This document shows, in pieces, positions 27,696 through 30,918 of a stretch of 64,000 nt of DNA. Each line of letters starts with the position of its first letter. Within the stretch, counting starts at the first letter, position 1. The DNA comes from Lachnospiraceae bacterium (GTDB lineage Bacteria > Bacillota > Clostridia > Lachnospirales > Lachnospiraceae), in the NCBI GenBank assembly GCA_024682115.1, contig JAIKZO010000065.1, forward strand, positions 1-64,000, written 5' to 3'. The position numbers were made by a program, and so were the translations under genes. A model generated the notes under the pieces. The model did not search any database. It saw nothing but the letters and a program-made list of their open reading frames with translations, and was not told the origin of the DNA.

Positions 27696-28778
27696 ATGGC
27701 AGATATAACAGCTTCTATGGTCAAGGAATTAAGAGAGATGACCGGTGCCGGAATGATGGACTGTAAGAAGGCTCTTGCAGAGACAGACGGCGATATGCAG
27801 GCAGCAGTTGACGTTCTTAAGAAGTCAGGTGCGGCAAAGGCTGAAAAGAAAGCAGCAAGGATCGCTGCGGAAGGTATTACCAGAGTAGCGATAAATGATA
27901 AGAAGGCAGTTGTTGTCGAGGTTAATGCCGAGACAGACTTCGTTGCCAAGAATGAGGTTTTCCAGGAGTTCGTACAGTCAGTAGCCGATCTGGCTTTAAA
28001 GTCAGGGCTTAAGGGCGGTAAGGACGGAGAAGATATAGACAAGCTTCTTGAGACAGATAACTTAAAGGATACACTGGTTGAAAAGACAGCTACTATCGGT
28101 GAGAAGCTTTCCGTAAGAAGATTCGAGACCATCGAGGCGGATATGGTAGTTTCATATCTCCACGGCGGCGGAAGGATCGGAGTTCTTGTCGGAGCTGAAG
28201 GTGCTTCATCTGATGCAGCCAAGGAAGCTCTTACGAACGTAGCAATGCAGGTTGCGGCTATGAATCCCCAGTATATCAGCAAGACTGATATCTCTGAAGG
28301 CGAGCGTGCTAAGATTAGAGAAATCACGATAGACAGTGCTCTTAACGATCCCGCTTCTTTACCCAAGCCCATCCTTAATGCTCTCATCGAAAAGGCTCTT
28401 GCAGGAAAACTCTGGAGCGATGAAGATGTTGCCATCTATGAAGAGAAGAAGAGCAATATGAACTATCTGTTCAACTTCCTTTCAGATGCAGCCAGAGCAG
28501 CTCTTGCACAGCTCGGTCTCGAGAACAAGGCTTCTTATATCGAGGATAAGATCTTCAAGGGTCTTGTTGACGGACGTATCGCAAAGAACGAAAAAGAAAT
28601 CTGCCTTCTTGAGCAGGTTTATGTTAAGGCTGAAGACGGAAAGCAGACAGTTGCTGCTTACCTTAAGTCAGTAGATCCTTCGATCGTTATCAAGAAGATC
28701 GTAAGATTCGAAGTCGGCGAAGGAATGGAGAAGAAGAACGAGGACTTTGCGGCAGAAGTTGCAGCTCAGCTCGGTTAA
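27696..28778 (+). CDS. tsf: Translation elongation factor Ts
   Basis: MADITASMVKELREMTGAGMMDCKKALAETDGDMQAAVDVLKKSG; 360 aa with internal insertion. Confidence 0.96.
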   Translation: MADITASMVKELREMTGAGMMDCKKALAETDGDMQAAVDVLKKSGAAKAEKKAARIAAEGITRVAINDKKAVVVEVNAETDFVAKNEVFQEFVQSVADLALKSGLKGGKDGEDIDKLLETDNLKDTLVEKTATIGEKLSVRRFETIEADMVVSYLHGGGRIGVLVGAEGASSDAAKEALTNVAMQVAAMNPQYISKTDISEGERAKIREITIDSALNDPASLPKPILNALIEKALAGKLWSDEDVAIYEEKKSNMNYLFNFLSDAARAALAQLGLENKASYIEDKIFKGLVDGRIAKNEKEICLLEQVYVKAEDGKQTVAAYLKSVDPSIVIKKIVRFEVGEGMEKKNEDFAAEVAAQLG

Positions 28779-28819: not shown

Positions 28820-28849
28820 GGAGCAGGTCATACGACCTGCTCCTTTTTT
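28820..28849 (+). terminator. Rho-independent terminator of rpsB-tsf
   Basis: GGAGCAGGTC-ATAC-GACCTGCTCC-TTTTTT. Confidence 0.95.
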
Positions 28850-28860
28850 CTGTCTGACTT

Positions 28861-29114
28861 CTATCTGTCTGACGGAGGCGGCGCGTCTGCTGTATCCCGG
28901 TAATTCAGTCTTCCGCAGACAGGTATCTCTAAATATTCCCGTTCACGTTTTCAAAACGTACGCAACCGACCCTCATAAACATCCTGTTTGTCGGGTCTTT
29001 TCGCGACATCCGTGTCGCGAAATTGCTGACTGATCATGGGAATATTAAGAGCTGCCGGTCTGCTCCACATTCATTACCGGGATACAGCAGACGCGCCGCC
29101 TCACCATAGACAGA
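28861..29114. repeat. Large foldback element 1
   Basis: Perfect 30-bp inverted repeat: 28875-28904 (GAGGCGGCGCGTCTGCTGTATCCCGGTAAT) vs 29073-29102. Outer TCTGTCT/AGACAGA and inner imperfect stem (28915-28940 vs about 29037-29063), plus internal TTTCGCGACA/TGTCGCGAAA hairpin. Confidence 0.9.
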
Positions 29115-29285
29115 AGGACCGCGAGGCAGCCATATCCCGAACAACGATTATGAGCCACGAAGGCGAGACCACAAAAACATCGAAATGCCTATATGTGAGA
29201 TGTTTTTGGCTTTGGGCTCGCCGGAGTGTCAGGCTCAACGAGTTGGAGAGATATGGCTGCCTCGCGGTCCTTCGTGCCTCATGGT
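29103..29285. repeat. Large foldback element 2
   Basis: Perfect 24-bp inverted repeat: 29113-29136 (GAAGGACCGCGAGGCAGCCATATC) vs 29250-29273. Nested GAGCC/GGCTC, GGCGAG/CTCGCC and AAAAACATC/GATGTTTTT; outer ACCAT/ATGGT. Confidence 0.9.
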
Positions 29286-29316
29286 ATAAACCGCAACAGT
29301 TGACAAGTAAATAACA

Positions 29317-30918
29317 ATGGATAGTGAGTTTGTGTTCGGCGTGACGGGTATACTACATACCATGAGAAAAAATGAGCGCGACATAAACCCCATAATAAGG
29401 TCTGACTATCCGGATCCCGATGTGATCAGGGTAGGAGATACCTATTATATGATAAGCACCACCATGCATTTCATGCCCGGCGGTGTTATTTTGCGTTCTT
29501 ACGATCTTGTAAACTGGGAGATCGCATCGTACATATTTGACACTCTCGATGATTCTCCCGACGAACGTCTTGAACTTGAGAGCACCAACTATGCCGGGGG
29601 CATGTGGGCCGGAAGTTTAAGATATCATGACGGACTTTTCCATGCGGTATTCATTTCGCATTTTTCGGAGAAAACTTATCTTTTCACCGCAAAGGATGTA
29701 TGTGACAAATGGGAAAAGCATACTATAGACGGATATTTCCACGATCCTTCGCTGTTCTTTGATGATGACGGCAGAAAATACATAATTTACGGAAATACAG
29801 AGATCTATCTGACCGAGCTTTCGGATGATCTTAGCGGCCCAAAAGAGGGCGGGATCCACAGGATCATCCTGGTGGATAATACCGAAAGGATACTCGGATA
29901 TGAAGGATCCCATTTTTATAAGATCAACGGAAAATATTATCTTTTCGTAATAAACTGGCCCAAGGACGAATTCACGAGAAGGACGGAGAGCTGTTTTGTT
30001 TCCGACAGCATTGATGGAGAATTCAGGGGCGGAGTAGTGCTCAGCGATGACAGAGGCTTCTTCGGTCAGGGAGTTGCACAGGGCGGTATCGTGGATACTC
30101 CGGGCGGCAAATGGTATTCCGTTATGTTCCAGGACAGCGGAGCTGTTGGAAGGATGCCGGTCCTTTGCCCGATAACCTTTAAGGACGGATTCCCGGTATT
30201 CGGCGTTAACGGGCGTGTGCCGAATGATTTTGAAGTCGCCAGTTCAAGACCGTATTACAGATATGAACCACTGAACATTTCGGATGATTTTGTAAAGGAA
30301 GATCCTTCATCCGATGATTACAGTCAGATAAAGAAACAGTGGCAGTGGAATCACGTTCCGGACAGGGAACTTTTCTACCTGCGACCCGAAGGCGGACTCA
30401 CGGTACGTACCGGCAAGCTCTGCAGCAATCTGACTCATGCTCCGAACACACTGACACAGAGGATGATATATCCCAGATGTGAGGCTGAAGTTACCGTTGA
30501 TGCATCGGCCTTAAAGAACGGAGACAGAGCCGGAATATGTGCGCTTCAGGGCTGCTACGGATATCTGGCGGTGACGAAGGAACTTGGGGTTTATTACCTT
30601 ATAAAGGTCGTAAGAAACCTGACTTCCGAACCTCATAAGGTGGGAGTCGCCGTGGATTTTATGCCGGGGGATATCGTCGAGAAGATAAGACTTAAGGAGA
30701 GTACGGTAACTCTCTGCCTGAAAGCAAATTTTGAAGAACTTACCGATAAACTCGATTTTTATTACTTAAAGGATAACAAATACGTCAGGATAGGAGATAC
30801 GCATCAGCTTAAATTCCGTCTGGATCATTTTGCGGGTGCGAGGTTCGGCCTTTTCCTTTACGCGACCGAGGAAACCGGCGGGGAAGCAACATTTACGAAG
30901 TTCGTTTTCAGGTCATGA
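29317..30918 (+). CDS. Glycoside hydrolase family 43 (beta-xylosidase/arabinofuranosidase-like), no signal peptide
   Basis: NPIIRSDYPDPDVIRVGDTYYMISTTMHFMPGGVILRSYDLVNWE; DPSLFFDDDGRKYIIYG. True start may be ATG 29362. Confidence 0.92.
   Translation: MDSEFVFGVTGILHTMRKNERDINPIIRSDYPDPDVIRVGDTYYMISTTMHFMPGGVILRSYDLVNWEIASYIFDTLDDSPDERLELESTNYAGGMWAGSLRYHDGLFHAVFISHFSEKTYLFTAKDVCDKWEKHTIDGYFHDPSLFFDDDGRKYIIYGNTEIYLTELSDDLSGPKEGGIHRIILVDNTERILGYEGSHFYKINGKYYLFVINWPKDEFTRRTESCFVSDSIDGEFRGGVVLSDDRGFFGQGVAQGGIVDTPGGKWYSVMFQDSGAVGRMPVLCPITFKDGFPVFGVNGRVPNDFEVASSRPYYRYEPLNISDDFVKEDPSSDDYSQIKKQWQWNHVPDRELFYLRPEGGLTVRTGKLCSNLTHAPNTLTQRMIYPRCEAEVTVDASALKNGDRAGICALQGCYGYLAVTKELGVYYLIKVVRNLTSEPHKVGVAVDFMPGDIVEKIRLKESTVTLCLKANFEELTDKLDFYYLKDNKYVRIGDTHQLKFRLDHFAGARFGLFLYATEETGGEATFTKFVFRS

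Follow-up and report, generated by a model that had tools for sequence, protein, structure and literature searches.

Two MITE-like foldback elements between tsf and a GH43 gene of a Lachnospiraceae bacterium: a TwoAYGGAY (RF01731) copy and a hairpin family outside Rfam

The window analysed here is the whole stretch of 64,000 nucleotides from a gut bacterium of the Lachnospiraceae. The tsf gene for elongation factor Ts (27696–28778, plus strand; Pfam PF00889, 179 bits) is followed by its intrinsic terminator (28820–28843, plus strand) and further downstream by a glycosyl hydrolase family 43 (GH43) gene (29362–30918, plus strand; PF04616 and the C-terminal domain PF17851), whose start at 29362 was chosen from an alignment with congeners. 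Between both genes lie two adjacent foldbacks, here termed E1 and E2. A repeat search of the window recovered the outer arms of E1 at 28875–28904 and 29073–29102, which are complementary at all 30 positions, and those of E2 at 29113–29136 and 29250–29273, complementary at all 24. The pairing of E1 continues inwards (28915–28940 with 29038–29063, 26 nt, 85%) and, by sequence inspection, outwards, where TCTGTCT (28864–28870) faces AGACAGA (29108–29114), the latter overlapping the first E2 arm by 2 nt. In all these points, as well as in naming the two neighbouring genes and in placing both foldbacks beyond the separately mapped tsf terminator, the original prediction for this DNA proved accurate.

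According to a simple calculation, chance alone would give about 3e-13 perfect inverted repeats of 30 bp in 800 bp. Folding gave z = -13.6 for E1 as minus-strand RNA, -14.4 for E1 as DNA and -10.3 for E2 as RNA, with no shuffled sequence being equally good in any of the three cases. This confirmed that both foldbacks are real and far above chance.

The E1 core (28908–29070, minus strand) is matched over the full length of the Rfam covariance model TwoAYGGAY (RF01731; model positions 1–168 of 168) with 94.8 bits at a cut-off of 43 and E = 1.1e-16, and E1 is a member of this known family, read on the minus strand. A second copy on contig C42 of the same genome, which contains two copies each of E1 and E2, scored 111 bits. 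As in the published family, both GGA hairpins of E1 are located within the closing stem. In detail, the hairpin at 28968–28997 (minus strand) presents its GGA in the loop in the context AACAGGATGT and the one at 29000–29021 (minus strand) in ACACGGATGT, and both resemble CsrA sites in sequence, fold and the GGA pattern across copies. The loops read ACGGAT and CAGGAT, the second being ANGGA-like and not strictly AYGGAY. At least two GGA are present in the hairpin region of 54 of 57 E1 copies, a count that is not limited to loops, and 83 GGA-loop hairpins were counted across 53 copies. The model, which carries the Rfam type Cis-reg, ends short of the long outer arms seen in E1. As far as could be found, the published description of RF01731 mentions neither the terminal repeats and target duplications given below nor the copy numbers and deletion derivatives, and no report of TwoAYGGAY mobility was found in that part of the literature which was searched. 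Crude ORF calls at 54 loci placed the downstream gene convergent with E1 in 39, with median gaps of 124 nt to the downstream and 237 nt to the upstream gene.

The E2 core (29149–29238) is a long interrupted hairpin with a GAA/GGA internal loop and a 17-nt apical region; it is given on the plus strand, an assignment taken from the model and lacking independent proof. In Rfam searches of the window, E2 was without a match at E values up to 10, where a single chance-level match fell over E1, and 11 loci searched with the curated cut-offs gave none either. Contig C73 of the same genome holds a second E2 copy, which has kept the fold with different arms. Relatives were found with the models R1 and R2, and a model built from two sequences led to relatives in other genera. 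A pattern scan, confirmed with the covariance model, yielded at least 119 stretches, which among the matches listed come from Eisenbergiella, Hungatella, Coprococcus comes, Blautia, Butyrivibrio, Hespellia and others. In 100 distinct cores, 97.1% of the cells were paired, double changes occurred at 23 of 27 pairs, and 555 double-change cells compare with 143 in shuffles, all measures lying above every shuffle. E2, whose relatives within the Lachnospiraceae number more than 100, is a hairpin family that has not been described before and is not in Rfam 15. The homolog search and covariance modelling put forward for this locus were successful for both elements, and the earlier notion of a structured non-coding RNA holds for the cores as conserved structures, for E1 through RF01731 and for E2 through its heavy covariation.

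The second E2 copy of this genome adjoins the upstream region of hrcA with its CIRCE-like repeat (L010, 3120–3146). E2 was also sought in viral contigs, where the loop pattern GAAATNCNTATATGTGA gave 48 sequence matches and no structural match and was discarded; the core pattern found nothing there either. DNA similar to the E1 core was not found in plasmids, nor DNA similar to E1 or E2 in phages.

When the joined flanks of the window were aligned with the congeners G004 and G001, the intergenic region between tsf and GH43 was found in both without E1 and without E2, which places the double insertion at approximately 28864–29286; two other genomes (G005 and G002) carry other genes after tsf. 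An insertion of roughly 420 bp in this lineage is the simplest reading of these empty sites. At the left edge, 28843–28872, a 15-bp unit is repeated in tandem almost perfectly (CTTTTTTCTGTCTGA / CTTCTATCTGTCTGA), which is possibly a trace of the insertion event. No target duplication could be resolved at the window copies, and no end sequence is common to both own-genome copies of either element. The same alignment bears on the suggestion that this region controls the GH43 gene in cis, as a leader or regulator. E2 does lie upstream of this gene with its modelled strand in the same direction; however, both congeners with the empty site keep the GH43 gene and a conserved upstream stretch without either element, other copies adjoin hrcA, xpt and unrelated genes, and the orientation of the neighbours is mixed. 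We consider such a role highly improbable, and the leader for a xylan gene that had been suggested for this region is not supported.

Further evidence for mobility comes from relatives. Fully scored genomes contain 50, 47, 40, 32, 31, 23, 20 and 20 copies of E1, and E2 reaches at least 17 copies in one genome. In genome G219, E1 forms a unit of 301–302 bp with the terminal inverted repeats GATTCRGGTGTCAAAAGG, conserved terminal inverted repeats of E1 being seen in G165, G047 and G103 as well, and 7-bp direct repeats flank 7 of 11 copies as compared to 5 of 104 cross-pairs. The same genome holds units of 191, 147, 94 and 61 bp that have kept the E1 ends and lost the core partly or wholly (L294, L295, L296, L297, L298). 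Its E2 copies end in different terminal repeats, TAGGYAATTGCGAAA, with flanking repeats of 8–13 nt (about 11 bp) at 9 of 14 copies and at 1 of 182 cross-pairs. In G219, the boundaries were set by eye using the very copies on which the test was run, the cross-pairs serving as the control. Since ends and duplication lengths differ between E1 and E2, different transposases are probable. No element of 1–3 kb bounded by E1 ends was present among the pattern matches in four genomes. As shown in these relatives, E1 and E2 behave as mobile, MITE-like foldback repeats. This is the explanation first offered in the original prediction, and it is borne out by the empty site, terminal repeats, target duplications and high copy number; of the two traces of insertion it had pointed to, the empty sites were found for this very locus, while the target duplications appeared in G219 and not at the window copies.

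Transcribed or structured MITEs of bacteria, namely the Correia/NEMIS elements, QMITE1/2 of Coxiella and bcr1–bcr3 of B. cereus, are likewise short non-coding sequences that have terminal repeats and target duplications; they occur in dozens of intergenic copies with very stable stem-loops, and some of them yield small RNAs or are cut by RNase III (PMC2229807, PMC10969869, PMC5896051, PMC3446304). MITEs giving rise to structured RNAs are an already known kind. E1 and E2 differ from those examples in that many genera share their conserved cores but not their ends and arms, in the link of E1 to CsrA, and in that both occur as divergent pairs.

In detail, the E1 inverted pairs not more than 600 nt apart were divergent in all 10 cases among the matches listed, and so were all 19 tabulated close inverted pairs of E2; two pairs, G209 for E1 and L202 for E2, were arranged in tandem. 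The pair in the window, E1 on the minus and E2 on the plus strand, mixes the two families, yet it is divergent as well. Local duplication is not supported as the origin of the E2 pairs because partners are no more alike than non-partners (0.90 versus 0.89). In one genome, the Clostridiaceae bacterium isolate C65_88_CS_BP, E2 pairs make palindromes of about 600–680 nt, and those at L182, L236, L238, L197, L209 and L243 each hold two divergent E2 copies within their arms. E1 and E2 were also seen about 180 nt apart in another genus, there in the same orientation (G219, C15:90193–90628, L313).

The connection with CsrA was examined in two samples. In the first, which was drawn at the family level with about one genome per genus, CsrA was present in 38 of 39 RF01731-positive genomes as compared to 126 of 250 overall (Fisher p about 6e-12, a value that ignores shared ancestry). 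In the order-level sample, which has 6 genomes in common with the first and in which 18 of the 22 positives lie above the Rfam cut-off, the figures were 22 of 22 and 177 of 295, again ignoring shared ancestry. Both samples combined, CsrA was found in 54 of 55 E1-positive genomes, the one without a CsrA match being G211, against 50–60% overall. This link may be due in part to shared ancestry or to a flagellate lifestyle. For E2 it was ruled out, as 8 of 16 carrier genomes have CsrA, which is the background rate.

The dedicated CsrB/CsrC and RsmX/Y/Z RNAs are encoded by one to few genes with many sites each. E1 resembles them in having hairpins with GGA in the loop that could bind CsrA, which for E1 is judged from the motif, and differs in that its dispersed copies, up to 50 in number, carry two sites each. 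Rfam 15 has placed RF01731 in clan CL00106 together with CsrB/RsmB (RF00018), a membership that we confirmed using E. coli CsrB, and binding of CsrA by TwoAYGGAY was proposed in 2014/2015 since its loops match the CsrA motif (PMC4333381). Judging from motif, Rfam clan and co-occurrence, an RNA copied from E1 on the minus strand would most likely bind CsrA. The clan, the published proposal, the co-occurrence and the covarying cores conserved across genera would also suit stand-alone small RNA genes, with E1 as a CsrB-like CsrA sponge, which were multiplied by ordinary duplication and whose mobility is incidental. Such genes would, however, hardly be expected in up to 50 copies per genome, with terminal repeats and target duplications and with internal-deletion derivatives that lack the core. 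In addition, neither a promoter nor a terminator fitting E1 or E2 was found in the window, on which ground a single sigma-70-dependent small RNA gene was rejected. We regard the small RNA gene explanation as quite unlikely.

The arms follow a pattern of their own. Beyond the model, E1 arms from different copies show 66% identity over 32 nt, as compared to about 91% for both arms of one copy. In genome G150, three E2 copies have arms matching at 80 of 80 positions and two more have a single mismatch, whereas the left arms of different copies are mostly 57–80% alike where they can be aligned; as these left arms are alignable and related in most pairs of copies, with few or no mismatches between both arms of a copy, inverted duplication of target DNA is ruled out as the arm source in this genome. 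A comparison of the two most similar copies gave 14 differences that appear mirrored in both arms and 8 that do not. G219 and G165 show the reverse, arms that are alike between copies and imperfect within a copy, as is expected for recent spread.

We further compared G-U with C-A combinations in the stems. These numbered 89 and 99 in the E1 arms, 86 and 108 in the E2 arms, and 3 and 5 in 788 positions of the E1 GGA hairpin stems, the last of which would be odd if selection acted on RNA only. In the E2 core, whose alignment was fitted by an RNA model, they were 44 and 18. Of the controls, transfer RNA acceptor stems gave 8 and 0 in 112 positions, and terminators, with 23 and 19, were also without asymmetry, which limits the power of this comparison. 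That G-U is no commoner than C-A in the arms, and that in many copies these are near-perfect within and different between copies, suggests upkeep at the level of DNA. Template switching at the DNA level has been argued for RNA hairpins (PMC8794818), where perfect stems are likewise kept via arm-to-arm copying; those cases concern RNA genes with shorter stems, whereas the arms here reach at least 80 bp and belong to dispersed elements. From these patterns we infer that the arms of a copy are probably kept alike by arm-to-arm copying of DNA, with selection on the core.

The same counts could mean that the elements act as DNA hairpins, single-stranded or cruciform, which are recognised by an enzyme like REP/RAYT hairpins or attC sites, RNA being irrelevant. 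The absence of a G-U excess in the arms and E1 hairpins, the strictly Watson-Crick stems and the perfect arms in G150 would all agree with this. On the other hand, the E2 core shows some strand bias towards RNA (subject to its RNA-fitted alignment), the test is weak given the terminators, E1 tracks an RNA-binding protein, and the target duplications in G219 are of the ordinary kind. An exclusive role as DNA hairpins appears unlikely to us, if worth keeping in mind.

The explanation that we prefer, and hold with reasonable confidence, is that E1 and E2 represent two distinct foldback elements, MITE-like and non-autonomous, which lie side by side in divergent orientation, the core of E1 being a CsrA-binding RNA and that of E2 serving another factor. 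Their insertion downstream of tsf and upstream of the GH43 gene would postdate the separation of this species from its congeners. In each element, long inverted-repeat arms surround a conserved folded core, and it would be moved by transposases acting in trans on its ends, probably by different enzymes for the two elements. The minus-strand RNA of E1 would present its two GGA hairpins to CsrA, so that the dispersed copies may serve as decoys for CsrA or provide neighbouring transcripts with CsrA sites, and the E2 core would bind some other factor. DNA template switching would keep the arms alike within each copy.

A bolder version is that TwoAYGGAY is a transposable element exploiting CsrA, with CsrA-binding hairpins on its dispersed copies and, possibly, a dependence on CsrA, and with E2 as a sister design that uses another factor, both renewing their arms by DNA copying. 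This we advance tentatively, as a possibility somewhat short of even chances. If it is true, TwoAYGGAY copies may instead, when transcribed, form a distributed CsrA sponge or rewire the CsrA control of neighbouring genes. Independently of this version, a catalogued RNA family of unknown function is now seen as a mobile repeat that follows a single regulator in its distribution, which renders the CsrA proposal for TwoAYGGAY directly testable in gut Lachnospiraceae. E2 adds a second hairpin family outside Rfam, and together the copies provide a natural dataset of long perfect inverted repeats that are kept while their sequence changes.
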